Of a DNA stretch of 44,795 bases, positions 20,094-37,366 are shown one piece after another. Under the pieces are notes generated by a model. The model searched no databases, was not told the origin of the DNA, and saw only the letters and a list, made by a program, of their open reading frames with translations. Every line of letters begins with the position of its first letter. Positions within the stretch are counted from its first letter, which is position 1. A program made the position numbers and the translations under genes. Location of the stretch: contig JAKSMS010000013.1 in NCBI GenBank assembly GCA_024400415.1, positions 1 through 44,795 of the forward strand, written 5' to 3'. Source of the DNA: Bacteroidales bacterium. GTDB lineage: Bacteria > Bacteroidota > Bacteroidia > Bacteroidales > P3.

Positions 20094-20141
20094 CCATACA
20101 CCATACACCCCCAGTTTGGACGTTTGGACGTTTGGACGTTT
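20094..20141. repeat. Two short direct-repeat tracts in a gene-free spacer
   Basis: CCATACA is repeated at 20094-20108, then three perfect copies of the 8-mer GTTTGGAC run from 20114 to 20137 with a partial fourth. They lie in the 263-base spacer upstream of the zinc-finger protein gene's start on the - strand. Nothing else is recognisable in the spacer apart from the terminator at 20195-20243. Confidence 0.7.
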
Positions 20142-20194: not shown

Positions 20195-20243
20195 CAAAAA
20201 AGCTGCGGCCCCATCACCCAGTGCTGGTGATAGAGCCGCAGCT
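20195..20243 (-). terminator. Strong Rho-independent terminator closing the RyR/CHAT/TIR operon
   Basis: AGCTGCGGC (20201-20209) pairs perfectly with 20235-20243. An inner stem ATCACC/GGTGAT stacks above it. On the - strand the hairpin is followed by TTTTTT (20200-20195), giving a strong stop 22 bases after the last gene of the array. Confidence 0.93.
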
Positions 20244-20264
20244 CGATACGTCAAGCCGACAGCC

Positions 20265-20564
20265 TTACCGTTTCACGATCTTGAAGCCAAGCTTCATGAT
20301 CAGCTTCAGCGTTTCCTGCGAAGTATTGCGGTCATAGTCCTTCTCCACCTCGGTCAGTTCCTCGTAAGGCACAAGGCAAGGATGCTTCAGCTCGGCATCG
20401 TTGCGTTCCTCGCCATACGTCCAGCCGTCCTTCATGCGTCCAGCCGACCACACCTCATGCACGTTCTTGGCAATCAGTTCAGCCAGTTCGTTCAGTTCCT
20501 CTGGCAGCACGACATCCTTTGTGTCGATAGGCTGCGGTGTGTAGTTGTTCTTATTCTGCTTCAT
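20265..20564 (-). CDS. Stand-alone RyR-domain protein
   Basis: This 99-residue cytoplasmic protein is almost wholly one RyR domain, the module first named from ryanodine receptors. Key residues are HEVW at 36-39, GWTYG at 47-51, HP at 61-62, and YDR at 77-79, ending in a helix (LKLIMKLGF). It closely resembles residues about 242-335 of the anti-sigma-like protein encoded at 35660-36667, including the leader pattern PID-x2-DV, so the two look like a local duplication. It is the last gene of the operon, 75 bases after the CHAT gene. RyR domains in bacteria are predicted ligand-binding units in conflict systems; the ligand here is unknown. Confidence 0.85.
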   Translation of the reverse strand: MKQNKNNYTPQPIDTKDVVLPEELNELAELIAKNVHEVWSAGRMKDGWTYGEERNDAELKHPCLVPYEELTEVEKDYDRNTSQETLKLIMKLGFKIVKR

Positions 20565-20639
20565 AATTCAAAAGGTTATTAATTGTTGAGTTATGATTTT
20601 AGAGTGCTTTTGCTTATGGATTCTATCATCAACTCCTTT

Positions 20640-22766
20640 TTAATCTAGCCCATCCAACAGTATAAATGCAGCCCAGTACTTCGGGGCTTCCCAACCAGGA
20701 ATTTCGCGAACGGTCCTCTTAGCTGCCTCCAATGCGTCATGCTTCGACATCTTCTTCCCAATCCAGTTGGAATAGAATTCAGTCATGAGCTTGCAAGTGG
20801 CCTCATCATCCACTTTCCACAATGACATAAGGATAGAGTTGGCTCCAGCTTGCTTAAATCCTCGCTGAAGTCCTGCTACTCCATCTGCAGTAACATCACC
20901 TAATGCAGTCTCACATGCCGACAATACTGCAATATCAAGATTGCTCAAATCCACATGAGCAATCTCATAGGCCGTTAATATGCCATCATCTACTCCTTCA
21001 GGTAGTTCTTCTTCATACATTGCCCTCTGAGCTCCTGCTAGTAAGAGCCCCGTTCGCTGCATCGAATAGTCAATCTTATATTCTGTTTTATCTCGACTAT
21101 ACAAAGTTGTTCCAACCTGATTATAATAACCATGTGTAGCAATATGAAGAATCCGCTGTTTACTTCCAGAAAGGTTCTTGAAAGACTCCTCATTACCCAA
21201 TGATTTGGTGAACTTGTTGATTTTTAAAGAATCCACCAGCGATAACGTCAATGCAATCATATCAACCTCTACACTCGTTTTCGGCAATGGCTGGATATAT
21301 TCACCATTTATGGCTGGACGAAGTGATCTTGTTCTACTATTGACATTGGGGTACTTCTTACTTTCGTCCAACATCGCTTTTTCTGACATATCATAAAGAA
21401 TGTCACCATACAGTGTTGCCTGGACATGGGGCTCACTCAGATTCTTCTCCAATGCAAGAACACGTGTGGAAGAAAGTCGATACAGATTATAGACATCTGA
21501 CATTCTGGCAAACTCTTTTCTATTGGGATTGTTAAAGGGCAATGACTCTATGCCAAATAACTGAAGTAATCCATCTGCTGAAAAATACACCTTTGCATCA
21601 GCCTCTTCTGAGAGGAGCACAATAAGATTATCTGTCCAAATTGCCTTACTAAGTTCCCACATTACGGTAAGTGGTACATCTTTTTCATTCTTTAAATCAT
21701 CTATTGCAAGTCTTAAAGCATTCTCTAAAGTAAAAGTCTTTTCTCCAACTCTAACAGTCTCCTTCAGCTTAACTATCTCGGGAGATTCCCATCCTTTTTT
21801 AACAACCAGTGCACCATATTCATTCAATGGCGTGCGGTAAAATTCGATAGCAACATCATGCTCACCAAGGTGACTCGCAACATCATTCCACGTTATCAGC
21901 AACTGAGGAATGTTATACTCCTTACATTCGTTTCTGAGCACATTAAGCATTGCATAGTCCAAAGAATCTTGTTCTGAAATATCAATAGTTTTTTTTCTTT
22001 CATCAAGTAACCTAATAGCTTCATTAGACTCACTATTTCTGACATAATTCTCAAAGTCAATTGTCGTATTCAACAAAATACCCTTGGATAGTAAAGTAGC
22101 ATTATATGCAGCCGAAGCTATTGATGATGTGGCAGATAATCTTCTACCAGCATATTTCTGAGCCTCTGATAATGTTTTGCCAACATATAACGAAGCCACT
22201 TTCCAATAGGCATTTCGTTTTGATTCGCTGCTTGAGCAAAACTCCCTCCTTAGTAGTTCAACGTAGCTCTCGTATCCTTTGTTATGCACTTCTACGGATT
22301 TTCTGTACTTATGTCTTTCTGCATATAGTTGAGATAGGTCCAATAAGGCATTCAAGGCCTGCTCGCTTTCGCAACCGAAAAACGATTGCTTCAACTTAAG
22401 GGAACTTTTAGCAAATTTGATTGCGAAATAGTCCCTCTCAGCGTTTTGTTCAATTTTAGAAAGGATATCATACCGGAGAATTTCGTTTATTGTATCACGA
22501 CCGTCAAAGTTGCCCATTCCAAACCGAGCAAAAAGTTCATCACTCTGTTTCAGCAATTTATAAGATTGAATGTTATCTCCAGCAATTGCACACTGCATTG
22601 CACACCATAATATACAATCTGCATATTGGTGACTCTTACTTGAATATTGAATCTCGCATAACTCTATCAAACCATTCATCTCAGTGCTTGTCACATTGCT
22701 AGTTTGAGCATAAGAATTGCAAAAGAAAAGGAGAAAGCAAGAGATTAATATAATTATATTCTTCAT
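20640..22766 (-). CDS. Exported CHAT-domain (caspase-like) protein
   Basis: This 708-residue protein has an N-terminal signal peptide (MKNIIILISCFLLFFCNSYAQ). Residues about 30-300 are helical and TPR-like without crisp repeats. The CHAT peptidase-like domain covers about 380-705, with the predicted catalytic His545 in LHIATHGYY and Cys618 in AVLSACETALG, plus GLQRGFKQAGANSILMSLW and a terminal YWAAFILLDG. The motif LLSKGILLNTTIDFE (about 225-239) is shared with the other CHAT protein of this locus. CHAT proteases cleave partner proteins in eukaryote-like death pathways. A copy with an export signal suggests a periplasmic or surface role. It lies four bases from the upstream gene. Confidence 0.9.
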   Translation of the reverse strand: MKNIIILISCFLLFFCNSYAQTSNVTSTEMNGLIELCEIQYSSKSHQYADCILWCAMQCAIAGDNIQSYKLLKQSDELFARFGMGNFDGRDTINEILRYDILSKIEQNAERDYFAIKFAKSSLKLKQSFFGCESEQALNALLDLSQLYAERHKYRKSVEVHNKGYESYVELLRREFCSSSESKRNAYWKVASLYVGKTLSEAQKYAGRRLSATSSIASAAYNATLLSKGILLNTTIDFENYVRNSESNEAIRLLDERKKTIDISEQDSLDYAMLNVLRNECKEYNIPQLLITWNDVASHLGEHDVAIEFYRTPLNEYGALVVKKGWESPEIVKLKETVRVGEKTFTLENALRLAIDDLKNEKDVPLTVMWELSKAIWTDNLIVLLSEEADAKVYFSADGLLQLFGIESLPFNNPNRKEFARMSDVYNLYRLSSTRVLALEKNLSEPHVQATLYGDILYDMSEKAMLDESKKYPNVNSRTRSLRPAINGEYIQPLPKTSVEVDMIALTLSLVDSLKINKFTKSLGNEESFKNLSGSKQRILHIATHGYYNQVGTTLYSRDKTEYKIDYSMQRTGLLLAGAQRAMYEEELPEGVDDGILTAYEIAHVDLSNLDIAVLSACETALGDVTADGVAGLQRGFKQAGANSILMSLWKVDDEATCKLMTEFYSNWIGKKMSKHDALEAAKRTVREIPGWEAPKYWAAFILLDGLD

Positions 22767-22769
22767 ATC

Positions 22770-23303
22770 CTAAAATTTATATTGAAAACCAATTCCTAAA
22801 CCAAGATTACTATTTCCCTTCAGCGAATAGTCTTTAATGCATAAATCTGGCCGAGGATTGATTTCTATAATTGACACCGATAACTCCTGAATAGCATCTG
22901 CCTTCCTCCATATTCTTTTTGCCCAAATATCAAAAACCAGGCCTACTCCTGTCACAACAATGGCTTCAACAGGAATCGCTAACCATAAGGACCAATCTCT
23001 AGCAATTGCCAACCAGCTCCCAAAACCCCCACTGACCATCGTTGTGGCATAGCCCAAAACCCTTATCTCATTGCTCCACATTCTTAAATTACGTTGTTTG
23101 TTATGCAGTTCAAAATCATAGTTTCTTTCTAATACGTTCTTAGAATAATAGTAAGAAGTTGAGAAGCCATCTAATACAATCGAATCTGTTTGTGCTTTTC
23201 CAACTTTTTTATTGAAACCAGAATCTTCGAGAGTATCGTTTTGTGCATTAGCATTTATGAATGACAGGCATACAAAAACTAAGATAATGTAAAAATGTTT
23301 CAT
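22770..23303 (-). CDS. Exported protein with a hydrophobic centre, function unknown
   Basis: This 177-residue protein has the signal peptide MKHFYIILVFVCLSFINANAQ. Two hydrophobic segments at about 85-100 and 106-126 (WLAIPVEAIVVTGVGLVFDIW) and a C-terminal beta-like stretch ending in LGIGFQYKF (final Phe) suggest a membrane-associated envelope protein. Whether it is an inner or outer membrane protein cannot be decided. No family is recognised. It overlaps nothing, being 3 bases before the CHAT gene and 1 base after the barrel gene, so it is surely co-transcribed. Confidence 0.65.
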   Translation of the reverse strand: MKHFYIILVFVCLSFINANAQNDTLEDSGFNKKVGKAQTDSIVLDGFSTSYYYSKNVLERNYDFELHNKQRNLRMWSNEIRVLGYATTMVSGGFGSWLAIARDWSLWLAIPVEAIVVTGVGLVFDIWAKRIWRKADAIQELSVSIIEINPRPDLCIKDYSLKGNSNLGLGIGFQYKF

Positions 23304-23304
23304 G

Positions 23305-24036
23305 TTATATATTTAAGAATAAGTTATTTATAGGTCTGGAAGGATTGGATGTGGAGAAAAGTCTTACACCCAGTCTAAGTTCAAAATACAACCCATTGAC
23401 ATGTGTTTTATGCATGTTATGATATGCAATCCTATTTGCATTGAGAAAAGAAATAGTCTGTCCACCTATCCTTGCATCAAACTTTAGATATTGAAATCTC
23501 AATCTGAACCCACAATAAGGGGCGAGGGTGACCCGATTAAAACAATCATCATAAAAACCTTCAAAAGAGTAATTATCCGAATTGTTAATAGAACTTCTCA
23601 AGAATACAGAGCTAGTTACTCCTCCATAAAATTCCGATTCGCCATATGAAATGTTTGCATCAAGAGTTATCCAATGTGTTTTTACATTTGAAGAGGGGAA
23701 TAAATCACGCGTATAAGCCAAGGAACCATAAGAATAGCCTATATTACCTTCCAACAAAATACCATAGTCTTTGTATAGATCGGTACCGACGCCAAACTCT
23801 ATAAAGTTAAAGTAACAATCTGACCTTTCTTTACCAATATTGTTACTTGCCGTCCACAAAGTTCCATTCTTGATGCTACTCCACATTCCCCAAATATAAA
23901 TATCCGTTCGCCATGTTTTTAATATCGACTGCTGAATATCATCAATATGAATGGTACATTTATTGTCTTGAGCATACGTAATATTAAAAGACAATACAAT
24001 AAATCCTAATACTAGTAAATGACTTTTAATGGTCAT
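23305..24036 (-). CDS. Small outer membrane beta-barrel-like protein
   Basis: This 243-residue protein starts MTIKSHLLVLGFIVLSFNITYAQ, a signal peptide; the frame extends upstream but without a better start. The mature part has alternating beta-strand patterns with many Tyr, Phe and Gly residues (FIEFGVGTDLY, GILLEGNIGYSYGS, LTLDANISYG-like strands, GLYFELRLGVRLF). It reads as an 8-10 stranded barrel of the PorT or OmpW size class. No close family is recognised. It overlaps the end of the upstream lipoprotein gene by 11 bases, implying translational coupling and possible assembly with that lipoprotein. Confidence 0.62.
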   Translation of the reverse strand: MTIKSHLLVLGFIVLSFNITYAQDNKCTIHIDDIQQSILKTWRTDIYIWGMWSSIKNGTLWTASNNIGKERSDCYFNFIEFGVGTDLYKDYGILLEGNIGYSYGSLAYTRDLFPSSNVKTHWITLDANISYGESEFYGGVTSSVFLRSSINNSDNYSFEGFYDDCFNRVTLAPYCGFRLRFQYLKFDARIGGQTISFLNANRIAYHNMHKTHVNGLYFELRLGVRLFSTSNPSRPINNLFLNI

Positions 24037-24766
24037 AATAGTAAATGTATTTGATAGCCCTAACATAATATTTATTTTTCTTTAGCCAACGGTCTTTATC
24101 TCCTGATGCAGAATTGTGAGGTGAGGACAATATCGCTCGATTTGCTTGGTCGTAATCCAAATTCAGGTCACCTACAACAATGTAGCCATCATAATCTTCA
24201 ATACACGTCCAATAGAAATGAGTATCATCAATTAACTCGCCACCAGTAACCAGCAAAGCATGATTCAGATTACTAACATTTTCCCCAGTTGAACCAAATA
24301 TTTTCCTCAACTCGTAATATGTTGGCAGTCGCCAACTACTAGAAGAAATCCATCCATCTTTATTCTTACGAAAACACCAATTTTGGGCAGGATACCTATT
24401 CATTCCTAGAGAGCTCATGCTCTGGAGCATGGCTATTCCGGCTGATGGTTTTTGGAATTCCAAGATTGAAGCCGAGTCCTTTTTCAAGACTATCTCCCCC
24501 ATAGGGCCCCATGGTTCATAACCTTCGTCTGCAGAAATAACAATCATGCATTTATATTCTTTAGGATACATTGATGAGGTAACTCCATATTGGACATAGG
24601 CCACAATCCCCTCATTTCCATCTTTATCTATATAGTAATCAAACAACCGGTATTCTTCATCAAGTTCATCTACTAACAATCCATCGGACTCCTTGTCACA
24701 TGAAATTAATGACAATAATATTAATACAAAAAATAACCTTGAATGTTTTATTAATAATACACGCAT
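24026..24766 (-). CDS. Lipoprotein with DUF1566/Lcl_C-like domain
   Basis: This 246-residue protein starts MRVLLIKHSRLFFVLILLSLISC, with a lipobox (LISC); an upstream TTG is also in frame but is less likely. Residues about 130-245 contain WRLPTYYELRKIF, followed by FYWTCIED and a terminal YVRAIKYI. That order is the signature of the DUF1566 (Lcl_C) family, a lectin-like fold distantly like FGE-type domains. It overlaps the preceding gene by 16 bases and the following barrel gene by 11, so the three are translationally linked. A surface binding role is inferred. Confidence 0.68.
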   Translation of the reverse strand: MRVLLIKHSRLFFVLILLSLISCDKESDGLLVDELDEEYRLFDYYIDKDGNEGIVAYVQYGVTSSMYPKEYKCMIVISADEGYEPWGPMGEIVLKKDSASILEFQKPSAGIAMLQSMSSLGMNRYPAQNWCFRKNKDGWISSSSWRLPTYYELRKIFGSTGENVSNLNHALLVTGGELIDDTHFYWTCIEDYDGYIVVGDLNLDYDQANRAILSSPHNSASGDKDRWLKKNKYYVRAIKYIYYYDH

Positions 24767-25605
24767 GACTTCATTTTTAATGTTTGGCAATCTATTTCTG
24801 AAACAAATGGCTTGTTTTCTGGATTTTTTATATATACATAAGCAGAGTCAACTAGATTCAATACAACACGTTTTATCTTTACTGAAATTGTGTCCGAAAT
24901 AGCACCTGTTGTAATAGGTATTATAATTTGCTTTTCATTTCTAACAATGTAACTATAGTTGTGGGTGCCTCTCTTTCTTCCTGACATAGAGTTTATAAAA
25001 AATGATTCATTGTAACCATAATATCCACTTACCCTTTCTATATCCTGAAGATTAGACAATACACAATAACCATTTACCGTCAATGGATCTAATGTCACAT
25101 TCACTTTATTATTCTCAGGTTTTGCATACAAGGAAGCATGCCTTACAATATTATTCTGATGCGCACTGCTTGGTTGAAAACAGAATAAATAGAAATTGTC
25201 AATGTTATCAATACCAAGTTGGAACCAAAACTCGTAATAATCAACAGCAAAATCGGATTCGACCACATCCGCAAAAAAAACAAATCTATATACATGGTCT
25301 TTTAGCAAGTGCAGAAACGTGATAGATGTCGATCCCATTTCATCCTTTAATACTTGTAAGTTCTGAACCATATTTCCGTCCATGTCATAACAGTATCCCG
25401 ATATTCTTACTTTTAAATTGCCTTCCAATGCCTGTACTCTCCCAATAGAATATCCTCCATCTAACATAGATAAGTAATTATCAAAGAAACCATCTGTACA
25501 GACATCAAAGGTTATTCTTCTTTGTTCCGTATCGTTCCATTCATCAAAATCGTCTTGACATGAAATGAACAACAAGGCAAATAATAAAATCACAATCTTT
25601 CTCAT
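24751..25605 (-). CDS. Lipoprotein of unknown function
   Basis: This 284-residue lipoprotein has the signal MRKIVILLFALLFISC (Cys16 lipidated), with an acidic start to the mature protein (QDDFDEWND). The rest is beta-rich with scattered aromatics and no recognised family. Features such as ISGYCYDMDGNMVQNLQV, HVYRFVFFADV and VSGYYGYNESFF resemble the stacked beta-sandwich domains of Bacteroidota fimbrial-type (Mfa/FimB-like) lipoproteins, but I cannot confirm that. It lies 3 bases after the barrel gene at 25609 and overlaps the next gene by 16. Confidence 0.65.
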   Translation of the reverse strand: MRKIVILLFALLFISCQDDFDEWNDTEQRRITFDVCTDGFFDNYLSMLDGGYSIGRVQALEGNLKVRISGYCYDMDGNMVQNLQVLKDEMGSTSITFLHLLKDHVYRFVFFADVVESDFAVDYYEFWFQLGIDNIDNFYLFCFQPSSAHQNNIVRHASLYAKPENNKVNVTLDPLTVNGYCVLSNLQDIERVSGYYGYNESFFINSMSGRKRGTHNYSYIVRNEKQIIIPITTGAISDTISVKIKRVVLNLVDSAYVYIKNPENKPFVSEIDCQTLKMKSCVYY

Positions 25606-25608
25606 AAT

Positions 25609-26256
25609 CTAAAATCTAAAACTATAGGTGGCACTTACACCAATCCTACAACGTTCAAAAATAGAGTCATACAATAAAAAATAGTCATAAGCTGATGATT
25701 CGTATACATATTGTTGATCTATCGCAGGACTCAAATCATATTCGTAAAACACTGAGAAATCCCATTCTTTATCTCTGAGTCCCAATTTACATTGACAAGC
25801 AAAATGGTTTCTGGCAATTGACCGCTCATCAGCTTCTGAGTGTTGTTTAACGACTATATATCTTGATCCAAGTGCAATGTTGTAAGCAAATTCAAGCCCA
25901 ACATAGAGTCTCTTTTGTTTCCAACGAAGAGTATTAATACTTCCACTAACAAAAAACGGCATAGTATAATGACTAATGTATTCACTATCTATACCACCTA
26001 ACACATTAGTCAACGATAGTTTCAAACCAATATCTCCATTGAACAGATTTCGGGATGACCCCATCCCCATGGATACTTTGGGATTTATCTGATAATTATT
26101 ATTCAGTGATACATCTAAGCCAATGTTAACATGATAATACTCAATTTTATCGAGACGCCTATCTAAGATTTTATCCCTATCTAGATTAGATTGAGCTGTA
26201 CTTATAATCGGAATACAGCAATACAGAATAATGACATAACAAACATGCAGCCTCAT
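25609..26256 (-). CDS. Outer membrane beta-barrel-like protein
   Basis: This 215-residue protein has the signal peptide MRLHVCYVIILYCCIPIISTAQ. The ATG at 26256 lies one base after the stop of the upstream gene (TAA-T-ATG); an in-frame TTG three codons earlier is less likely. The mature region shows repeated amphipathic strands (HVNIGLDVSLNNNYQI, GDIGLKLSLTNVL, LYVGLEFAYNIALG, WDFSVFYEYDLSP) and ends in YSFRF, a classic barrel terminus with Phe last. No family name is assignable. It probably forms part of a surface complex with the neighbouring lipoproteins. Confidence 0.68.
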   Translation of the reverse strand: MRLHVCYVIILYCCIPIISTAQSNLDRDKILDRRLDKIEYYHVNIGLDVSLNNNYQINPKVSMGMGSSRNLFNGDIGLKLSLTNVLGGIDSEYISHYTMPFFVSGSINTLRWKQKRLYVGLEFAYNIALGSRYIVVKQHSEADERSIARNHFACQCKLGLRDKEWDFSVFYEYDLSPAIDQQYVYESSAYDYFLLYDSIFERCRIGVSATYSFRF

Positions 26257-26257
26257 A

Positions 26258-27577: not shown

Positions 27578-27631
27578 ATAATAATCTTTTCTAAGTCTCA
27601 AAAAAGCGTATGTTCGATAATTCCCATCTAT

Positions 27632-28297
27632 CTAGTTGCTAATCACCACAAAACTAGTATCTTTGTCTCCTTTATTAATCACTACAATCTCCACTGTATT
27701 GCTTTTCTCCTTGGGCAAAGTAAATCGGTTTTTGTAGCGGCGGACGCCCTCTTTTGCCCCTTTGTTATCATTATGCCATTCGTCAAGACCTGATTTATTG
27801 GTCACATGAACCTTTACATATACTCTGCCTCCTGGTTCGGTGATAATGCCGAGTTCCTGTACACCGCGTGAGACGAACGAATGTTTTGTGCTCTTACCTG
27901 CCTTTACGAAGCATGTCTTGGTAAGGATTGAACCATCAGTAGTTTGTCCACGATGGGTGGTAGAACGATTGATGCTATCAGCGTTCTCGTATGGATTGCC
28001 ACCCGCCACCAAACTGGCAACAAAAACATCGTTGAACACGAAATGACCATTAAGTGATTGGATGGTATCATCCTTACATCGTAATGAGGAAAAGGAAGTT
28101 GATTGACTATCCTTGAGAACCTTTGCAGCTGCCACAAGAGCTGTTGTGTCGTTGGTTTCGAGCGATTCCTGCATTGATACACATGCATCAAATACTGCAT
28201 CGATACTCATGCTGTCGGACACTTCACTATTAACGACCTGTGCATAAATGCTGCTTACGGACAATACTGATAAAAGAAAGAAAAAAAGTCGCTTCAT
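27632..28297 (-). CDS. Exported protein of unknown function beside the TIR gene
   Basis: This 221-residue protein has the signal peptide MKRLFFFLLSVLSVSSIYAQ. The N-terminal third is helical and Asp/Ser-rich. The C-terminal half is beta-rich, with KHSFVSRGVQELGIITEPGGRVYVKVHVTN and a final strand VEIVVINKGDKDTSFVVISN, and could form a jelly-roll or lectin-like sandwich. I recognise no family. It starts three bases after the TIR gene's stop, so it is probably a dedicated periplasmic partner of that transmembrane protein. Confidence 0.65.
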   Translation of the reverse strand: MKRLFFFLLSVLSVSSIYAQVVNSEVSDSMSIDAVFDACVSMQESLETNDTTALVAAAKVLKDSQSTSFSSLRCKDDTIQSLNGHFVFNDVFVASLVAGGNPYENADSINRSTTHRGQTTDGSILTKTCFVKAGKSTKHSFVSRGVQELGIITEPGGRVYVKVHVTNKSGLDEWHNDNKGAKEGVRRYKNRFTLPKEKSNTVEIVVINKGDKDTSFVVISN

Positions 28298-28300
28298 ATC

Positions 28301-29650: not shown

Positions 29651-29656
29651 ATATAT

Positions 29657-32500
29657 TTATTTATCTCCGTCCAATATTATGAATGACGCCCAGTATTCTG
29701 GATTGTCATAGCCATTCGCGCGTAGGTATTGCTGTGCCTTGCGTAGTGATTCGTTTGGAGTATTGCCTGCCATGAGTTCCTTGTAGAACTGGGTCATGAG
29801 TTCGGTGGTGGCTCGGTCATTCACCTTGCGGAGGCTCATAAGAAGGGTGTGGACACCGGCGTTCTTGAAGCCTCGCTGGAGTCCGAAGACTCCGTCGTCA
29901 CCCATCTTTCCAAGACCCGTCTCACATGCAGAGAGTACGGCAAGCTGGCAGTTGCGGAGGTTCATCTTTGCCACATCGGCAGCGGTGACGTAACCGTCTG
30001 TGCTGGTACCTTCGTTGCCGAGGTTAGCTCCGGCGAAGGCGAGAATACTCTGCTGCATAGATTCGGCATCCGTTATTTTGCCTTTTGCTAGATAAGATCC
30101 ATGGGTGGCAATATGCAGGAGGTTCAGTTTGCTGTCGCTTAAAGCAAGGAATGCCTCTTCGCTTGCTTTTGTGTCAGCAAAGGTTTGGACATTCTTTACG
30201 CCAGATGACTTGAGGGTTTGGGTTATCTCATCCATCTCCTTGCGTGTGCCGTCAAGGTTGCCAAACTGGATGACACCATCGTCTGTGGTTTGAGCCGCCC
30301 CTCGCAGGGTTGCAACACTTTGTTTGGCATCAGCAGAGTAACAACCTTCTTCGTTGTAGTTAATGTCGCCAAAAATAGCAGCACGCTCAACCTTTGTCTT
30401 TGCTGCATTATAGCATAGTTCCTTGGTTGACGACAAACGGACCACAACCTTTTGTTCTGAAAGAGGTTTGCCCTCCCATTGCAGATACTCAATGCCTATC
30501 TGGCTGAATGCGCCATCAGCAGAAAAATATATGCGCTTCTTATCCTTTATATATGGAGAAAGACTGCCCCATACAAGATTGCCAACAACGGGAGTTGAAT
30601 AGATCTGATCATCCTGCTGCATTGTTTTCACTTGAGCCAGCGTACAGACGGGCAAAGCAACAGGTCGCTTCATATCCTTGGCCAGCACAATTGCCGCCAT
30701 ATAATTGTTCGCATCCAACTCGCCCGACCTTCTAATAGCAGCAAACTCTATGGCAACATCGTCCTTGTGCAATCTTGCCTGCACATCCTTCCAAGAGTAG
30801 CCAATGTAATCGGTAAAGTCTGCCATTTCTGCACAGTTACGACTGACCTCGAGCTGTAACTGCTGACTCTTCTGTTGTAACTTCACAATCCGTTCAAGGT
30901 CCTCGTCAGTACTTGCCATCTGTCTGAGATTTTGCAGTTCGGAGTTTACTCGCTTGACCTCCGCATACTTTGCCTTGAGTCCTGCATTATTGCCCGCAGC
31001 CACAACCTTCTCGAACTCAATGGAGGAGTTCAGCAGAATACCCTTCGACAGCAACATACAATCGTATGCTAGGGCCGAGAGCTCCGGCATAAGCACCTCA
31101 TTACCTACAGGAAGTGAAACAAGCATATCCATAATTTCTTCAATTACCTTGCGTTCTTCTGCCCAGATGGTCATACGTTCCAACTCACTCTGCATACGGA
31201 ACTCATCACGTATGGCATCTCTAATAACATCCATGTACTGCTTATAGTACGACACACTCTGCTGATACTCCTCTTTCATATAGTAGCATCCAGCAATAGT
31301 ACCTAAGGCGCCAGCATATTGCAGATTGCCGAGATAGTTCCTATATAGTTCAAGATTAGATGTCTCTTCTCTAATGATAGCATCCAATTTTGCAATCTGA
31401 ACCTGTTTCACAGCATCCTCATCCATCTCATTGCTCTCCATAGGTATGCCAGCGTATGCATAGCATAAATTTAGCGAGGTTTGTGTTTCATGTGCCTTAT
31501 CGATCATTCCGCGTTCATTGTAGATAGCAATAGCCTGCTTGTAATGCCCGATAGAGGCATCATATTCCTTGTTGAATTTCTCAGCCGTCGCCACGCGTTC
31601 TATGGCATTTGGATATCCTTCATCTTCTTTGTCATACTGTTCATAATAAGCCACAACGTACTTGTGTTCATCGCGAGCCTCAGCATACCTTTGCAATGCA
31701 GACAACGCATTACCCACCCCCCGATGGCATTGGGCGATGTTCTTTCGAGCAGCATCGCTGTCTTGTTTCTCATAGAATGCCATCACCTGACGATAGCAGG
31801 CTAACGATTGCTCATACTGCTTTCCTAGGAAATTATAGACTGCCGCCTTATACACCAATCGGAAGAAATCCTCCGTCTCGCCTTCAACAGCTTGTTTAGA
31901 ATTAGCGGACATCAGATAATACTCTGCAGACAAAGCGAACTCTCGCACACCTTCATTGAACTTGGCGTAAGACTCATACACCTTCGTCTTCTGAGATTCA
32001 GTCATTGGCATCTGCAATGCCTTCATATAGCATTCTTTGGCCTTCTCATTATTGCCAGTCGCGGCATAGTATTCAGCTCGATCCGACATACACTCTGGTT
32101 CGTCGCAAGGCAAGGTCAGCTCATGCTGGTTGTGTTCCTCCATGAGTGCCATCACAAGAGCAATGCCCTTCTGATCACCAGTCTCATTGTAGCACATAGC
32201 CATATAGTTCAGCATCTTCTCATAGTTCTTGCCAAACTTCACGACCTTCTGGCGCGCCAAATCCCAGCAAGCAGCCGCATGTGAATAGTCATTCGACCGG
32301 TAGAACAAGACTGCCAGATCATGACACGACGTGCTATCGGCCTTGCTTGCCTCCGACTTTATTATTTTCCCTATGTTGGCATTGGCGGATGAGGCTTTAG
32401 CATAAAGATTTTGTGCTGTCTGAGTCTGAGCATTGATTGTTGTTGATAAGATTATTAAGTATAATCCTATGGCTGATCTCTTTAAAACATTCGTTCTCAT
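29657..32500 (-). CDS. Exported TPR-CHAT protein
   Basis: This is a 947-residue protein with an N-terminal signal (MRTNVLKRSAIGLYLIILSTTINAQ), so the ATG at 32500 is chosen over an in-frame start 16 codons earlier. TPR repeats fill about 60-430 (YYAATGNNEKAKECYMKAL, FLGKQYEQSLACYRQVMAFY, YDASIGHYKQAIAIYNERG, YYMKEEYQQSVSYYKQYM). A CHAT domain spans about 620-945, with the predicted catalytic His800 (LHIATHGSY) and Cys859 (AVLSACETGLG). The usual SLWKVDD motif reads SLRKVND. It lies 6 bases upstream of the TIR gene and shares LLSKGILLNSSIEFE with the other CHAT protein of the locus. Confidence 0.92.
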   Translation of the reverse strand: MRTNVLKRSAIGLYLIILSTTINAQTQTAQNLYAKASSANANIGKIIKSEASKADSTSCHDLAVLFYRSNDYSHAAACWDLARQKVVKFGKNYEKMLNYMAMCYNETGDQKGIALVMALMEEHNQHELTLPCDEPECMSDRAEYYAATGNNEKAKECYMKALQMPMTESQKTKVYESYAKFNEGVREFALSAEYYLMSANSKQAVEGETEDFFRLVYKAAVYNFLGKQYEQSLACYRQVMAFYEKQDSDAARKNIAQCHRGVGNALSALQRYAEARDEHKYVVAYYEQYDKEDEGYPNAIERVATAEKFNKEYDASIGHYKQAIAIYNERGMIDKAHETQTSLNLCYAYAGIPMESNEMDEDAVKQVQIAKLDAIIREETSNLELYRNYLGNLQYAGALGTIAGCYYMKEEYQQSVSYYKQYMDVIRDAIRDEFRMQSELERMTIWAEERKVIEEIMDMLVSLPVGNEVLMPELSALAYDCMLLSKGILLNSSIEFEKVVAAGNNAGLKAKYAEVKRVNSELQNLRQMASTDEDLERIVKLQQKSQQLQLEVSRNCAEMADFTDYIGYSWKDVQARLHKDDVAIEFAAIRRSGELDANNYMAAIVLAKDMKRPVALPVCTLAQVKTMQQDDQIYSTPVVGNLVWGSLSPYIKDKKRIYFSADGAFSQIGIEYLQWEGKPLSEQKVVVRLSSTKELCYNAAKTKVERAAIFGDINYNEEGCYSADAKQSVATLRGAAQTTDDGVIQFGNLDGTRKEMDEITQTLKSSGVKNVQTFADTKASEEAFLALSDSKLNLLHIATHGSYLAKGKITDAESMQQSILAFAGANLGNEGTSTDGYVTAADVAKMNLRNCQLAVLSACETGLGKMGDDGVFGLQRGFKNAGVHTLLMSLRKVNDRATTELMTQFYKELMAGNTPNESLRKAQQYLRANGYDNPEYWASFIILDGDK

Positions 32501-32844
32501 ATTCTTTGTTACAATAGGCACATAACTGTCATCTTGCGAGTCTTGCATGTTTCCAGATTAAACAGTACGCATAGATTAATAGAAAATTGTCTTTCATTGA
32601 TTGTATCTTTGGTCAGTTGCTATTATTTTTCTACAACTCCTCAAAATGATAATGTTCTATCATGTCCTTTGGTGGTGTTGCGCATGGATTTTTTTTTCAA
32701 ATCTCATCTTGTTCCTGTATATTTCCTTTTTCCTTTAGACGTTTGACGGCTTTGTCAGAATCTCTTTCGAATAATCGCATCTCACGGTCATGGCGAGGCC
32801 TTTCTGTATGTATTCATGAAGACGCTGGGTGCAGCCCTGTCCAT
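32501..32844 (-). other. 344-base spacer splitting the RyR/CHAT operon, with a possible mini-gene
   Basis: This is the only long gap within the 17-kb array. No TAnnTTTG promoter box or hairpin terminator was found on the - strand. A 27-codon frame at 32697-32780 (starting MRLFERDSDKAVKRLKEKG) has a natural-looking charged helical composition and could be a small gene or the displaced tail of the protein encoded at 32845-33309. The remainder is A/T-rich with no recognised element. Confidence 0.4.
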
Positions 32845-33309
32845 TCACTCTTCGAAGGCCTTGGTGTTGATATGCTTTCCCGTTATCTCTTCGAGGAAGT
32901 CTATGCGCATCACCGTAAGGAGGTCTTTGGCGTATGCCTGAAGCAGTCCTTTGTAGTAGGTGACGTCTTTGTGGTTGGTCTTTGTGATGCGCTCCCATAG
33001 GGTCTGCTCTGCGGCATCCTTGTAGGCGGGCTCTATCATCTCGCGATTGCCGTCGGTGGTCAGCTTGCGCAGCTTCTGCTCTTCGAGCACCAGCGGCGTG
33101 CCTTTCTGTCCCTCCGGTGCGTGATGCTGCCAGAGCTCTTCGAGGAAGGCGCGATACTCTGCCTCTATCTTCAGGGGCAGGTCTTTGGTATATTCTCCGA
33201 TAGTCTCTGGACGTTCGATGGCGGCCTCTTGCACGAGGCTGCCGAAGTATTTGTCGAGCAGTTGGCTCTGCTTTGCCTCACAGAGGTTGGCGATTTCTTG
33301 TGGTGTCAT
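32845..33309 (-). CDS. Small soluble protein of unknown function
   Basis: This 154-residue cytoplasmic protein has no signal or membrane segment. It is mostly helical and charged (MTPQEIANLCEAKQSQLLDKYFGSL, EYRAFLEELWQHHAPEGQKGTP, TYYKGLLQAYAKDLLTVMRID). I recognise no family. The start overlaps the end of the divergent-RyR gene by 4 bases (ATGA), indicating translational coupling and a likely physical partner. A frameshift near the 3' end, joining the mini-frame at 32697-32780, cannot be excluded. Confidence 0.62.
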   Translation of the reverse strand: MTPQEIANLCEAKQSQLLDKYFGSLVQEAAIERPETIGEYTKDLPLKIEAEYRAFLEELWQHHAPEGQKGTPLVLEEQKLRKLTTDGNREMIEPAYKDAAEQTLWERITKTNHKDVTYYKGLLQAYAKDLLTVMRIDFLEEITGKHINTKAFEE

Positions 33310-34475
33310 AGATATATCAGTTTTTGTTTTCCAGGTGATTTTTTAGAACCCGCCGCTAATATATAGGGGATGGCCAGCATCAAGAAGTAGTCGTACTTGA
33401 TATTCCCCGGATCAATTCGGCGGAGGTTCTTGTAGGAGCAAAGATCCATATGGACCCCATCGTTTTTCAGGCGCTTGCGATATGCCGCTTGTTCATCCCC
33501 AAACAGGTCTTCTATTTCTAGATGCTCCTGGAAGCTGTATGGCCTATATCCGAGGATCAGCCTCTCTACATTCCATCTTGAGTGTTCGCAGAGGGCCAGC
33601 GCATCGATATTATCACTTATCGCTTTATCCACCTTCTTTCTTTCCTCTCTTAGATACTTGTCTATCGTCTTGCCTGGGATGTCCAGCAGCCCATCGAGAC
33701 GCTCCTTGATGCAGTCGGCGCAGAATAGGCATGAGAGCCTGTCATTGGCCTTCACGTTCGCAGACGTCCACTTCTCTAGAGCCTTTTCTGAAGTCGTATG
33801 GCTGAAGAAATAATGCAGGGCTGTCTCATACCGCGGGACGTTCGCATTGTCGTAGGCCGGCAGGTTATCTATGTCCTTTCCTAAATTGTAGGCCATATTT
33901 ATCAGTTGCGCCTGGCAGATCCTCTTGGAATCAGCATCCTCATTGCAGTGATAGGCTATATTCTTCACTTCCGACATTCTGATTTTGATGGGTTCCTCAG
34001 CCTTATCTGGGCACAAGGAACAGCCTGCGCCCGCTTTTCTTATCTCGATGGCGACATCTAATGGCATGAAGTTTTTGAACGATTCATAATACCTACTTTC
34101 GTTCTTGCCGTCTACCACGAACTGGCAGTAATCCGTCAGATTGCCCAAATATTTCTTTAGCAGCTCCTTCATCTGCAAAGAATCCTCATTATTGTGTATT
34201 ACGGATATAACGGTCCTGGTGGATTCATCCCCCTCTTTGAAATTGGGATAATGCGTTATCAATGCCACTTGGCGGACTATTGCCGCTGCCAGTCGATCAC
34301 TACCGCCATCCAGTATTATCTCAACATGCACATACCTGCCAGATTTGGGGCCAAGGTCCTTGGCCACATCGAGACGCTTACGCTCCTCAAGTATGTAGTG
34401 GCGCGCAACAAGCCATTCGTTGACCCCTTCTTCACTTATGCCGTCAATGCCTTGAAACAAGTCTTTTATCATCAT
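33306..34475 (-). CDS. Soluble protein with divergent C-terminal RyR domain
   Basis: This 389-residue cytoplasmic protein has an N-terminal alpha/beta region (about 45-145: VHVEIILDGGSDRLAAAIV, RTVISVIHNNEDS) that looks Rossmann-like but is not assignable. The middle carries Cys pairs (GCSLC at 151-155; CLFCADC at 249-255) that could bind a metal. The C-terminus (about 290-375) fits prokaryotic RyR domains fused to nucleotide-type domains: EHSRWNVERLILGYRP at 297-312, DLCSYKNLRR at 344-353, and a closing helix YDYFLMLAIPYIL. Its ATG overlaps the MscS stop by 4 bases, and its stop overlaps the next gene by 4. It may act as a nucleotide-sensing controller of the channel. Confidence 0.72.
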   Translation of the reverse strand: MMIKDLFQGIDGISEEGVNEWLVARHYILEERKRLDVAKDLGPKSGRYVHVEIILDGGSDRLAAAIVRQVALITHYPNFKEGDESTRTVISVIHNNEDSLQMKELLKKYLGNLTDYCQFVVDGKNESRYYESFKNFMPLDVAIEIRKAGAGCSLCPDKAEEPIKIRMSEVKNIAYHCNEDADSKRICQAQLINMAYNLGKDIDNLPAYDNANVPRYETALHYFFSHTTSEKALEKWTSANVKANDRLSCLFCADCIKERLDGLLDIPGKTIDKYLREERKKVDKAISDNIDALALCEHSRWNVERLILGYRPYSFQEHLEIEDLFGDEQAAYRKRLKNDGVHMDLCSYKNLRRIDPGNIKYDYFLMLAIPYILAAGSKKSPGKQKLIYL

Positions 34476-35632
34476 AGCGATTGTCCTTTCTTGTGATTTG
34501 GCTGTTCTTCAACCATCGTAATAGTATTATTGCTTGCATCGTAGCCAGAAGTACGCTGGTACAGCTGCAAGTCGAACCAGGCCATCGATTCTACGATATG
34601 TTCAATGATCTGCGACTGCTGCCACTCGAATGAGTCTAGCTTGCTATCCGTGATGAAGCAGTAGACCTGCAGCGGGAGACCTTCGTCCACCTGTTCGAGC
34701 CAGCGAACGATGAGCCGCGGCTTGTGCGACACATGCTCGTGCTGCATGAGCCAATGATAAATATAATGGCGGTAGAGCTGTATGTTCAGTACTTTGTCGG
34801 CAGCAGGATTATCCTCTTTAAGCTTTTTCAGGTGATAGTCGAAGAAACCCTTCATCGATGGGCTCAGATCTTCGATTCGCTGTCTCAAAGTAGACAGCTC
34901 CTCCCCTTCCAGATATTGAATCCACCCTGTGTCGACAACAAATGTCTTCAGCATCTGGCGGCCGTGAGTTTTTCCCTCCAGCATCTTCTGGTTGTTCTTG
35001 AAGTGCTGCGATTGGAGGACAAACGTAGGGATGGCCGAGGTGGTAGTATCCCAGTTTTCCAGCGTGACGGTGGTCAGCGACACCCCTTTCACAATGCCGT
35101 CGACGCCATACGAAGGCACCTCAATCCAGTCCTCTATCATCAGCAGGCCGTTCAACCTTAGATACAGGAATGCCGCAACACTCTTGATCGTGTCCTGGAA
35201 TATCCATCCCAGCACCAGGCCTGCGCCTCCCAGCATGATTGCTTCAGGAGAATCTTTTCTCGGATTCAGAAACTCCACCAGAGCGACAATGAATAGGCCG
35301 ATAACAACCAGCAGCACTATCTGGCTGCAGGTTATCCGAGTTTCCTGTTTGCGCAGGCAGAATATCGTGTTCAGCACCTTTATCACCACAGAAGTACGCC
35401 ATAAAAGCAGCACAGACACAACCAACGTGGCTATCCTAAGATAGGGAAACGGATGGCACCCCCAGACGGCCCTTGCTATGAGCAGAGCAGCGTCAAACAT
35501 AGAAGCCAGAACGATGAGGATATTGACCCACCACCACTTGCCATCAATAATGGCACCCCAATACTGCCAAGCCCATTTTTTGCTCGTAAGCGCTCTTTTA
35601 GCGTTGTATGATATCTTAAAGGATTCTTTCAT
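34472..35632 (-). CDS. MscS-family mechanosensitive channel (YbdG-like)
   Basis: This 386-residue inner membrane protein has hydrophobic helices at about 35-58, 66-88 and 104-121, a glycine-rich pore-lining helix (GGAGLVLGWIFQDTIKSVAAFLYLRLNG, about 135-162), and the MscS beta domain (MIEDWIEVPSYGVDGIVKGVSLTTVTLENWD, about 165-195). The C-terminal cytoplasmic region (about 225-370) resembles YbdG-type MscS proteins in length. A GTG one codon earlier is in frame, but ATG at 35632 is preferred. It is placed between two RyR-encoding genes and translationally coupled to one, so its gating may be ligand-regulated as well as tension-driven. Confidence 0.88.
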   Translation of the reverse strand: MKESFKISYNAKRALTSKKWAWQYWGAIIDGKWWWVNILIVLASMFDAALLIARAVWGCHPFPYLRIATLVVSVLLLWRTSVVIKVLNTIFCLRKQETRITCSQIVLLVVIGLFIVALVEFLNPRKDSPEAIMLGGAGLVLGWIFQDTIKSVAAFLYLRLNGLLMIEDWIEVPSYGVDGIVKGVSLTTVTLENWDTTTSAIPTFVLQSQHFKNNQKMLEGKTHGRQMLKTFVVDTGWIQYLEGEELSTLRQRIEDLSPSMKGFFDYHLKKLKEDNPAADKVLNIQLYRHYIYHWLMQHEHVSHKPRLIVRWLEQVDEGLPLQVYCFITDSKLDSFEWQQSQIIEHIVESMAWFDLQLYQRTSGYDASNNTITMVEEQPNHKKGQSL

Positions 35633-35659
35633 CACAGGGTATTATTGATTCATTGAACT

Positions 35660-36667
35660 TTATTTTTCTTTTGTTAGATTCCACCCCAATTTCTTCAGCA
35701 GCTTGATGGTATTCATGGCCATCTCGCGGTCGTAGAGTTTCTCCGACTCGGGGAGCCTATTGTAGGCCATCATGTCGGGATGCAGCTTCTTGGCATCATC
35801 GCGCTCGGGGCCGTAGGTCCAGCCCTCTAGCTTGCGGTTGTAGGCCCACACCTCGTGTGCGTTTTCAGCTATGGCCTCGCGCAGCTCTATGAGGTCGTCC
35901 GAGATCTCCACGTCCGAAAGGTCTATCGGGTGCGGCTCATAATCCTCGCCGTCGCTGATGACGATGAGATAGCGGGAGGAATCGTCCCAGGCATCGACGA
36001 ACTGCGGCAGCGGATAGGCATCGTGCTGCTGCGGCGTGGCAGAATCGGTGATGGTGACGAAATCTTCGCCAACCGACTCAACAACGACCACATGATTGGG
36101 GGTAAGGCCCTCGGACGTGTCTTTGCGCTTCTCCGCAGCGTAATTGCCTACCAGTTCGTTGGCATCTACAGCCGCTATCACGACGCTGCCTGCAGAGAGG
36201 GCCTCACGGATATCCTCTACAGAACAATGGTATCGATGACTGACTGACAGACCCTGCATGCCGGCAAGGCGGCCTATGTTGTGAAGCGCCGTGCCGCTAG
36301 GCTTCTGCCACCCCTCTGCCCGAGATCTTGCAAGCAGATCTTCATCCGATACCATAATTCCAAAATGCCTCAATGCAATCCCCTCGCATCGGATAACGCA
36401 GCTATTGTCGATGATATTCTGCGCAGCCATTGCGGTCATAGGAAGCGTGGAAGGCTGAGCGTGGAGGGCACGTGCCTCCATACCGTCAAGCATAGCGCCA
36501 AGATTTTCAATGTAGGAGTCCACGTTATCGTCGGCATCCCCCATTGCAAACAAGACGGACTCCATCATATCGGGATTTGCTGCCAGATACTGGCGCACGG
36601 CCTCGCGTTCCTCATGCGAGACATTACCCTCTGCGTATGCAGCCAAAAGTTCGTTATCTACAATCAT
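35660..36667 (-). CDS. Anti-sigma-like protein with C39-like cysteine peptidase and RyR domains
   Basis: This is a 335-residue protein. Residues 1-45 (LLAAYAEGNVSHEEREAVRQYLA) resemble the helical start of anti-sigma (zf-HC2-like) domains, without zinc ligands. Residues about 82-238 look like a C39/papain-like peptidase: Cys90, His192 (NHVVVVE) and Asp208 (TITDSA) are in the right order. Residues about 258-332 are a RyR domain (HEVW 271-274, GWTYG 282-286). It follows the sigma gene by 6 bases, so it probably controls that factor, with the RyR part sensing a ligand. The peptidase activity is plausible but unproven. It is the apparent parent of the 99-residue protein at 20265. Confidence 0.8.
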   Translation of the reverse strand: MIVDNELLAAYAEGNVSHEEREAVRQYLAANPDMMESVLFAMGDADDNVDSYIENLGAMLDGMEARALHAQPSTLPMTAMAAQNIIDNSCVIRCEGIALRHFGIMVSDEDLLARSRAEGWQKPSGTALHNIGRLAGMQGLSVSHRYHCSVEDIREALSAGSVVIAAVDANELVGNYAAEKRKDTSEGLTPNHVVVVESVGEDFVTITDSATPQQHDAYPLPQFVDAWDDSSRYLIVISDGEDYEPHPIDLSDVEISDDLIELREAIAENAHEVWAYNRKLEGWTYGPERDDAKKLHPDMMAYNRLPESEKLYDREMAMNTIKLLKKLGWNLTKEK

Positions 36668-36673
36668 ATCCGT

Positions 36674-37366
36674 CTATCTGTTAAGTTTGTTATATATATC
36701 AGCGACTTTGTCATAACCTCGATTAAAGAGGTTGTCGATATAGCCGCTATTGGGTTCTACAATCTGGTTCTTGCTGTTGTAGCGCACAATGCCATTTGCA
36801 CGCCAGTATTCTTGCAGCAGGACAGCAACCTCCTTGCTGCTGTAGCCCTTCAGCCGATGAACGACCACAAAGCGCTGGTCAGGACTTTCCAGCATGAGGA
36901 TGGCCTCATTCAAAACCATCATATTGTATCGACGCTCCTGCTGATCTTCCTCGTCGGCTGGGATCTCAATAGTGTGATGCCCCCCGTCGTCGGTCCAGCC
37001 GATGTCGATAGAGGTATTTTCGCCATTGTTTTCTATCAGTTTTTTGCGCAGTTCGAGGGACAGGTTATAAGCCGTAATGCTCAACCACCTGCCCAGAGTG
37101 CTTCTCCACCCGAACGATCTGAGCGCGTGCCAGTCGCAATTCTTGCCCTTCAGCAGCATGAACAATTCGCTCTGCAGCTCATCAAGCCTGCCAACGCCGC
37201 CAAGCGTCTTCTGGCAGATAGCAATGCAGAGCGGCTCATATCGGTCATAGATAAGATACGTCGCAGCCTCCTCGTTATGAGGCTCTGCAACAATCAGATT
37301 CACAATCTCCTTGTCGCCGAGATTTATATATCTATCTTTGAATATCAGCTCCATGCCAATCCTCAT
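36674..37366 (-). CDS. ECF-like RNA polymerase sigma factor heading the RyR/CHAT/TIR operon
   Basis: This is a 230-residue protein. Region 2-like features are at about 30-110 (AATYLIYDRYEPLCIAICQKT, LDELQSELFMLLKG, WRSTLGRWLSITAYNLSLELRKKL). Region 4-like helices are at about 155-225 (AILMLESPDQRFVVVHRLKGYSSKEVAVLLQEYWRANGIV). It is divergent from standard ECF factors and longer. The first gene of the array, it sits about 85 bases downstream of a well-formed promoter. It is expected to activate the locus or other genes when released from the anti-sigma/RyR protein. A second ATG four codons in (37354) is also possible. Confidence 0.78.
   Translation of the reverse strand: MRIGMELIFKDRYINLGDKEIVNLIVAEPHNEEAATYLIYDRYEPLCIAICQKTLGGVGRLDELQSELFMLLKGKNCDWHALRSFGWRSTLGRWLSITAYNLSLELRKKLIENNGENTSIDIGWTDDGGHHTIEIPADEEDQQERRYNMMVLNEAILMLESPDQRFVVVHRLKGYSSKEVAVLLQEYWRANGIVRYNSKNQIVEPNSGYIDNLFNRGYDKVADIYNKLNR

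Follow-up and report, generated by a model that had tools for sequence, protein, structure and literature searches.

Sixteen open reading frames (ORFs) on the minus strand, running from position 37366 down to 20265 of a 44,795-nucleotide stretch of Bacteroidales DNA (contig JAKSMS010000013.1 of assembly GCA_024400415.1, hereafter the window), were compared with related loci. With confidence that falls just short of even, we read this array as one member of a modular signalling island of Bacteroidia, in which cyclic ADP-ribose (cADPR) made by TIR domains would be read by RyR receptors that release a sigma factor and gate a channel. Gene content, linkage, the residues of the ligand pocket, the C39-type and TIR glutamate residues and the co-occurrence of RyR and TIR are observed directly in the sequences. 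The window is one whole contig of a gut or rumen bacterium whose genome amounts to 1.84 Mb in 79 contigs; protein folds were assigned by sequence alone, using Pfam and PDB profile searches. A preliminary description of the window had announced sixteen same-strand genes, and these were recovered in its ORF list, numbered here g01 to g16. The genes on which the argument turns are:

36674..37366, minus strand: g01, ECF-like sigma factor of 230 aa (Pfam Sigma70_r4_2, 0.013; profile of 39 members)
35660..36667, minus strand: g02, anti-sigma-like N-terminus, C39-peptidase-like domain (C90, H192, D208) and RyR domain (H271, W274, H296, D313; Pfam RyR, 1.5e-30)
34472..35635, minus strand: g03, MscS-type channel with 3 hydrophobic segments (Pfam MS_channel_2nd, 4.2e-7; hydropathy scan)
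33306..34475, minus strand: g04, soluble protein, RCK-like and RyR-like, that shares homology with membrane RCK-RyR proteins outside their membrane region
28301..29650, minus strand: g07, TIR domain (E114), transmembrane segment 190-208 and FGE domain (FGE, 3.6e-22; TIR_2, 1.1e-4)
20265..20564, minus strand: g16, free RyR protein of 99 aa (H36, W39, H61, D78; Pfam RyR, 1.3e-36)

A sigma factor gene accompanies the C39-RyR gene

Named genomes were scanned with an alignment of three C39-RyR sequences. Of the 59 loci obtained (L086-L144), 49 (L086-L134) match the query wholly or for the most part. Almost all lie in metagenome genomes labelled Bacteroidales or families thereof (a few only Bacteroidia), and the core is also carried by Prevotella communis E15-14, whose genome is complete. 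Neighbourhoods were compared in a distinct set of 59 stretches (L086-L134, L033, L034 and L048-L055; the mapped loci), each ending at 10 kb or at a contig edge. Two pairs among them are identical (L052/L103 and L055/L134), which leaves 57 distinct mapped loci, and the close relatives L106/L108/L113, L117/L120, L102/L105/L121 and L112/L132 mean that locus counts are not independent.

In 47 of the 48 Bacteroidia loci with an upstream gene, the sigma gene stands directly upstream of the C39-RyR gene, at a spacing of -88 to 14 bp (L086, which meets a contig edge, was dropped; L130 is the locus without a sigma gene). With g01 as query, 38 sigma genes were found directly in 37 mapped loci, and the remainder was obtained by single-linkage clustering. 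The distance matrices of the sigma factors and of the C39-RyR proteins are correlated (r 0.67, n=48), the maximum of 500 permutations being 0.21. The adjacency and this correlation bear out the private sigma factor of the preliminary description as a partner of the system. As to its identity, the profile of 39 sigma members matches structures of sigma-H and sigma-E along almost its entire length (about 1e-5), whereas the Pfam match of g01 itself is weak; individual members show region 4 in 7/39 and region 2 in 6/39 cases.

In the C39-RyR proteins, C90 and H192 are each present in 50/50 sequences, and position 208 is occupied by D in 38, by E in 7 and by N in 5. Peptidase_C39_2 matches 14 of 22 members (E up to 0.05) and the window's g02 only at 0.03-0.06, and the g02-family profile matches a C39-like structure at 5.5e-5. 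The N-terminal segment resembles anti-sigma domains weakly, with matches to zf-HC2 in 6/22 members and to RseA_N in 1/22; anti-sigma structures in the PDB are reached by the family profile at a weak E of 0.6-0.7, ranked below calmodulin and myosin light chains. Four relatives without RyR (L048-L051) have this segment alone, as a short separate protein behind the sigma factor, with M48-type proteins (cluster 4), FGE proteins and, by eye, Hsp70-like proteins as neighbours; in one of them, a run of several Hsp70-like proteins (by eye; a four-member cluster confined to this locus) was seen behind the sigma/short anti-sigma pair (L050:6930-15035). The equivalent N-terminal domain of L078 scores 0.0082 with zf-HC2 and carries an HxxxCxxC motif, the only one among the N-terminal domains read by eye.

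C39 proteins lacking RyR either end in CarboxypepD_reg (L081 and L082, with a transmembrane segment between, by eye) or have no added end. The sensor end therefore looks exchangeable. Some of the anti-sigma-like proteins of this kind (L081, L082, L077, L079) adjoin GTPase-like genes, as judged by eye.

RyR and TIR genes are linked

Across the 47 genomes containing the loci, TIR_2 gave 174 matches, 150 of them listed. Within 10 kb of a core gene lie 58 of the 150 matches listed (1.2 expected), and within 15 kb 72 (1.8 expected); these and the following linkage and co-occurrence statistics ignore phylogeny. RyR genes, all 100 of 100 rows of which were used, were classed by frame, those of 310-400 aa being taken as core by length alone (51), shorter ones as free (44), while 5 longer ones were dropped. 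Free RyR genes lie within 10 kb of a core gene in 26/44 cases (0.36 expected). For CHAT the counts are 6/35 within 10 kb (0.29 expected) and 16/35 within 25 kb (0.72 expected), 35 of 36 rows being used and one short fragment omitted. In P. communis all 4 TIR_2 matches fall within 20.1 kb of the core gene.

N6_Mtase, an unrelated defence marker, served as control in the same genomes. Of its 153 matches (about 150 rows assumed listed, those on core contigs picked by eye), only 2 rows representing one gene lie within 10 kb among the matches listed. Because this control is not enriched at the loci, a generic defence island is disfavoured. Recurrent linkage of this kind in many Bacteroidia genomes, above chance for the core and the TIR genes, agrees with the earlier claim that the genes belong together.

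Co-occurrence was followed in two samples that were not chosen for the system, yet overlap with the genomes of the loci. In the family sample (190 genomes), TIR was found in 35/40 genomes with RyR vs 25/150 without (p 7e-17), and 24/87 TIRs of the RyR-positive genomes lie within 10 kb of RyR (0.94 expected); the TIR search of this sample missed the window's own weak TIR, which another TIR_2 search returned. In the order sample (393 genomes), TIR occurs in 26/28 RyR-positive genomes vs 116/365 others (p 1e-10), and in 0/4 genomes with a C39 protein lacking RyR; here, 32 genomes were divided by eye into RyR (28) and C39-only (4), the L078 genome being counted as RyR-positive. TIR_2 was also found in none of the four genomes with the sigma/short-anti-sigma type. 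At three loci recruited by the RyR part alone (L136, L075, L137), a TIR gene was seen near the free RyR gene, and in L136 and L075 the two are immediate neighbours.

Gene order and cargo vary around the core

An array much like that of the window was seen in Prevotella sp. UBA2754 (L145, L146; same locus as L089), where it spans about 24 kb from sigma to RyR. It begins with PP2C, sigma, C39-RyR, TIR-FGE, a small protein, MscS and RCK-RyR, and continues with several TIR-like genes, one SIR2-TIR-like and one STAND-like gene (some by eye), followed by TIR-FGE, g08, CHAT, g05 and RyR. The same end cassette of TIR-FGE, g08, CHAT-type genes, g05 and RyR is found in L149, and in L148 an unlabelled 215-aa protein takes the place of g08 and g05 is missing. 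Recurrent cargo of other loci, identified in Pfam with one member per cluster, includes SIR2_2 with TIR, TIR with a weak prokaryotic STING match, Macro-TIR and nSTAND1-TPR, besides M48, PrsW, WG repeats, LRR, FHA-trypsin and partial kinases; FGE cargo was recognised by similarity to g07. A protein with DSP-phosphatase and ADP-ribosylglycohydrolase domains (L055:1-2115, minus strand) was noticed in the vicinity of a C39-RyR locus that also holds FHA-trypsin, CHAT and kinase-like genes.

The proposal that co-occurrence and order are conserved in Bacteroidales genomes thus holds in part: the core is kept in 47/48 loci and linkage recurs, but order and cargo vary. For this reason a single fixed 16-gene operon was rejected; the earlier notion of one unified 16-gene set is not supported in that form, g09-g14 being without relatives in the mapped loci. 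What recurs in the array and in related loci, in line with the preliminary description, is the pairing of conflict-type effectors with ligand-binding modules.

One could go further and deny a single circuit altogether, seeing a Bacteroidia defence island of separate transcription units in which the sigma factor and g02 control their neighbours only. The strong variation of cargo between loci, gaps of 296 bp and 75 bp within the array, and the restriction of g09-g14 to the window among mapped loci would fit such an island. It is difficult to reconcile with the lack of N6_Mtase enrichment, with the recurring TIR-FGE/CHAT/RyR end cassette, and with the gene 5' of sigma, which is on the same strand and at most 60 bp away in 34/47 loci; we regard it as the least probable of the explanations considered here.

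Concerning mobile elements, PLSDB gave only two partial matches to g02 and no whole relative at the threshold used, and no relative of g16 was found in the viral contigs scanned. The closest INPHARED matches, MT837259 and MT836850, are records without annotation; the latter is marked UNVERIFIED and nothing was concluded from it.

A proposed channel arm of MscS and RCK-RyR proteins

The MscS channel named in the preliminary description is confirmed by Pfam for g03. MscS relatives occur in 6/59 mapped loci (L033, L034, L087, L089, L102, L123) and each is followed, as in the window, by an RCK-RyR gene without a membrane region. The product of this second gene, g04, has no hydrophobic segment, and 11 of 18 relatives in its alignment carry an N-terminal membrane region. 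The MscS and g04 pair may represent a split version of a fused RCK-RyR channel. Among membrane-fused relatives, PF02026 (RyR) is detected in 4/14 and Slo-like_RCK in 7/14. The best matches of the profile of these 14 proteins, all weak, are to a TrkA-domain channel (GsuK), DMI1 and CASTOR.

The earlier count of three RyR proteins stands for two of them, g02 (105.7 bits) and g16 (125.2 bits), which exceed the PF02026 cut-off of 27.4; the third (34475-33306, g04) gave no RyR match in Pfam and is RyR-like through its relatives. In the alignment of g04-type proteins, H298, W301, H342 and D362 are invariant in 19/19 rows. A second RCK-RyR type (cluster 6) has hydrophobic segments in 9/11 members, the other two being cut at the edge of the stretch, and the motif EHxRW in 11/11. 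Taken as one or both types, RCK-RyR proteins are present in 32/49 loci and directly precede sigma in 17/47.

A candidate RyR ligand and the proposed circuit

A preprint of May 2026 describes phage RyR domains that bind or cleave the TIR products 2'/3'cADPR, and gives H75/W78/H100/D117 as the ligand residues of RyDEP, a phage RyR-domain anti-Thoeris protein (PMC13232231). Both g16 and g02 match these four residues with the same spacing (+3, +25, +42), in a comparison based on the published residue numbers. The residues are conserved in C39-RyR proteins (H 50/50, W 50/50, H 34/50, D 50/50) and in free RyR proteins (24, 24, 23 and 25 of 25 for H, W, H and D). The RyR-domain profile matches animal RyR structures as well as the bacterial structure 3nrt. 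TIR domains of gut Bacteroides have been reported to produce cADPR or v-cADPR, one of them in mice (PMC9092222).

From the gene content and these residues we infer a ligand, a direction of signalling, cleavage of the anti-sigma segment, gating of the channel and a biological role, which would combine as follows. A cue from outside the cytoplasm, sensed by the FGE/surface half, would activate the membrane TIR protein g07, whose TIR domain would convert nicotinamide adenine dinucleotide (NAD+) to a cyclic ADP-ribose isomer to be bound by the RyR domains. In g02, binding might set off the C39-like domain, which would cut the anti-sigma segment or change its arrangement, so that sigma would be freed and cargo transcribed. 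Ligand bound to g04 would gate the MscS channel in the manner expected of the fused relatives, whose own RCK-RyR part would control the membrane region. The free RyR protein g16 could buffer, degrade or relay the signal, and the TPR-CHAT proteases and other cargo would be further outputs. That RyR domains would be receptors for TIR-made cyclic ADP-ribose is a sharper reading than the preliminary description offered.

Several observations weigh against this circuit. On the linkage side, among the TIR matches listed, one lies within 15 kb of a core gene for only 35/51 core genes, and 2/47 core genomes have no TIR_2 match. The RyR-less C39 protein of L078 adjoins a TIR gene; TIR linkage therefore extends beyond RyR proteins. 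The genome G107, which holds RyR, MscS and RCK-RyR genes and with them one of the two closest g03-g04 relatives found in the family search, has no TIR_2 match. The TIR domain announced for g07 retains the catalytic-type E114, aligned in 10/10 TIR sequences with the window included, but its match of 1.1e-4 is below the Pfam cut-off, and charge counts place positive charges on both flanks of its transmembrane segment, which leaves the topology unfixed. In the C39-RyR proteins, position 208 is not Asp in 12/50 and H296 is not conserved in 16/50. C39-type domains can be non-proteolytic. The nearest channel profiles are reached by the membrane-fused g04 relatives only at a weak E of 0.004-0.04. Finally, published data on RyR domains themselves show that 6/8 phage RyDEP homologues bound ligand and only that of DyoEdafos cleaved it, and that the R12 domain of animal RyR3 also binds other adenine-containing ligands through equivalent residues (PMC13232231).

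The behaviour of R12 lends itself to a different explanation, in which RyR domains sense adenine nucleotides in general (ATP, NAD+, ADP-ribose) as a gauge of energy or NAD depletion, TIRs are NAD+-consuming killers and sigma runs a stress programme. RyR without a TIR_2 match in 5/40 RyR-positive genomes of the family sample is in keeping with such a gauge, and a wider stress network is suggested by cargo such as PP2C, kinase-like, FHA/trypsin and ADP-ribosylglycohydrolase proteins. We consider this gauge unlikely, though the strongest of the alternatives.

Alternatively, the RyR proteins might be negative regulators, i.e. hydrolases or sponges that quench TIR signals in a RyDEP-like self-protection, with g02 shutting sigma off and g04/MscS unrelated to cADPR. 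Cleavage by DyoEdafos RyDEP and binding by its homologues provide a precedent, and the proposed catalytic pair H75/D117 is retained in g02, g16 and g04. The fusions to anti-sigma-like/C39 and membrane RCK proteins would suit a receptor better than a disposal enzyme, and we judge quenching improbable.

If the circuit of TIR-made cADPR and RyR receptors is correct, TIR signalling would extend to dedicated gene regulation and ion flux, and a bacterial origin would be suggested for a receptor module of animal calcium channels. In its broadest form, which we put forward only tentatively, there would be a bacterial cyclic-ADP-ribose/ryanodine-receptor-domain axis with TIR makers, RyR receptors, a channel arm and a sigma-releasing C39/anti-sigma arm, whose RyR-channel pairing would be a counterpart to that of animals, rooted in conflict systems. 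The combination of cADPR-type enzymes, RyR, a private transcription switch and an ion channel suggests an unrecognised bacterial alarm circuit, and the island offers candidate bacterial receptors, a transcription arm, a channel arm and residues to mutate.

CHAT, surface-protein and further genes of the array

The remaining genes of the array are:

32845..33309, minus strand: g05, conserved protein of 154 aa with unassigned fold (no Pfam match)
29657..32548, minus strand: g06, TPR-CHAT protein with HIATHG (812) and LSACET (872) and a signal-sequence-like N-terminus (CHAT, 7.7e-50)
27632..28297, minus strand: g08, 221 aa with a signal-like N-terminus, found after the TIR-FGE gene in several relatives (locus comparison)
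26258..27601, minus strand: g09, fn3-like, exported and by eye a probable lipoprotein (sub-cut-off Pfam fn3, 0.0075)
25609..26265, minus strand: g10, exported, barrel-like by eye (no Pfam match)
24751..25605, minus strand: g11, lipoprotein-like, 284 aa (lipobox-like FISC; no Pfam match)
24026..24790, minus strand: g12, lipoprotein-like with Lcl_C-like domain (lipobox-like LISC; Pfam Lcl_C, 1.7e-4, below cut-off)
23305..24066, minus strand: g13, exported, barrel-like by eye (no Pfam match)
22770..23303, minus strand: g14, exported or membrane protein of 177 aa (sequence features)
20640..22766, minus strand: g15, second TPR-CHAT protein with HIATHG (541) and LSACET (615) and a signal-sequence-like N-terminus (CHAT, 8e-44)

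The two CHAT proteins and the FGE-like module of the preliminary description are clearly recognised by Pfam; in other loci, several relatives of the CHAT proteins do not carry the His or Cys motif in the exact form used for the search. Relatives of g05 are present in 6/59 mapped loci and in L146, L149 and L150, where the gene directly precedes that of free RyR. For g09-g14, no relative was found at 1e-5 in the 59 mapped loci, nor at 1e-3 in seven further stretches. In L147, L150 and L151, exported or lipoprotein-like proteins were also seen by eye to form blocks, none of them related to g09-g14; a surface block may therefore be a recurring feature even though its genes are not shared. Since both CHAT proteins and most of g08-g14 have signal-like starts and a transmembrane segment separates the FGE end of g07 from its TIR domain, the system probably spans the inner membrane.

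Boundaries of the array and neighbouring sequences

The following features delimit the array:

37456..37463, minus strand: promoter-like TAnnTTTG element (TATTTTTG), 97 bp 5' of the ATG of g01
20200..20244, minus strand: intrinsic terminator with a 19-pair stem 3' of g16 (stem read from the sequence)
18301..19479, minus strand: WG-repeat protein past the terminator, candidate further island member (Pfam WG, 2.7e-8)

The TAnnTTTG element that had been named as a promoter at the start is present ahead of the sigma gene. Across 12 upstream regions (the window and 11 loci with a gap >90 bp) the element occurs in 8, the mean after mononucleotide shuffling being 1.7. A spacing of mostly 1-25 bases or overlap had also been reported: most junctions are tight, but g05-g06 and g15-g16 are separated by the two gaps mentioned above (296 bp and 75 bp, respectively), both of which lack TAnnTTTG. 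These gaps leave co-transcription of the 16 genes unproven. ORF overlaps of about 40 bp at g11/g12 and g12/g13 suggest that some annotated starts are too early.

Of the claim that the array closes at a strong terminator, the 19-pair stem at 20244-20200 was found, but the array may run past it. The WG-repeat gene beyond is a probable further member of the island; its homologues form cargo cluster 5 in 12/59 mapped loci (11/57 distinct; best 4e-103). As it is on the same strand and homologous to cargo elsewhere, the array coordinates may be too narrow.

Between terminator and WG-repeat gene, a small protein (19503-20075, minus strand) shows a DnaJ-type cysteine-rich region at 0.0067, below the cut-off, and has no relative in the mapped loci; short GTTTGGAC tandem repeats lie right past the terminator (20114-20137, plus strand). 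Upstream of the array are genes for a cytochrome-assembly protein, a di-haem oxidoreductase and an imelysin, and just upstream a remnant resembling an IS4-type transposase end by eye, with no Pfam match (37986-38318, minus strand). The window also contains an RNase P class A RNA (11121-11496, plus strand; 246 bits). Sub-cut-off Pfam matches to DUF1654, BPD_transp_2 and Ndc1_Nup among window proteins were set aside.

Comparison with known systems

In line with the preliminary description, no system with this exact set was found in the literature searched, and in the portions covered no bacterial RyR/TIR/sigma system is described; a prediction of one may exist in Burroughs et al. 2015. Term searches of Kaur et al. 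2020 (PMC7159879) returned neither 'RyR' nor 'sigma factor', and that of a jumbo-phage paper (PMC7824862) no 'RyR'.

Thoeris resembles the island in having a TIR with a conserved Glu beside a predicted receptor for cADPR-type molecules; it differs in that the receptor of the island would be RyR instead of a known Thoeris receptor, with a sigma factor and a channel as outputs. PADLOC found no Thoeris match in the 10/16 array proteins scanned, g07 being without a ThsB match, and its sole match among these was a weak PDC-S06 on g04; in related loci, 5/10 cargo proteins gave ThsB matches, all weak. Among all 16 array proteins, Pfam detected no SLOG or SIR2.

An ECF sigma factor adjacent to an anti-sigma-like protein resembles the pairs with cytoplasmic class I/ZAS anti-sigma factors, and HxxxCxxC occurs in one relative; unlike these, the anti-sigma-like protein of the island carries a C39-like domain and a swappable C-terminus (RyR, CarboxypepD_reg or none). 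EACC2/caspase operons likewise place an ECF sigma beside protease conflict effectors, whereas a term search of that study returned neither 'RyR' nor 'C39' (eLife 2021, PMC8195603). CASTOR/POLLUX (DMI1) and TrkA-domain channels are weakly matched by the fused g04 relatives, in which RCK-like domains likewise come after a membrane region; in the island there is in addition a C-terminal RyR-like domain, and the channel of the window is a separately encoded MscS.

With phage RyDEP, the island shares the PF02026 family and the four equally spaced ligand residues in g02 and g16; its RyR domains are instead bacterial, fused to anti-sigma-like/C39 and RCK parts, and located beside TIR genes. Phages counter TIR signals with RyR domains, and host RyR proteins of bacteria are not treated as receptors in the parts of that preprint covered (PMC13232231). 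The island proteins are candidate host-side receptors. The R12 domain of the animal ryanodine receptor is homologous to the RyR domain described here, whereas the island has no Ca2+-release channel and couples RyR to bacterial channels by an RCK-like region. Taken together, the parts of the island are of known kinds, while their combination appears to be new.

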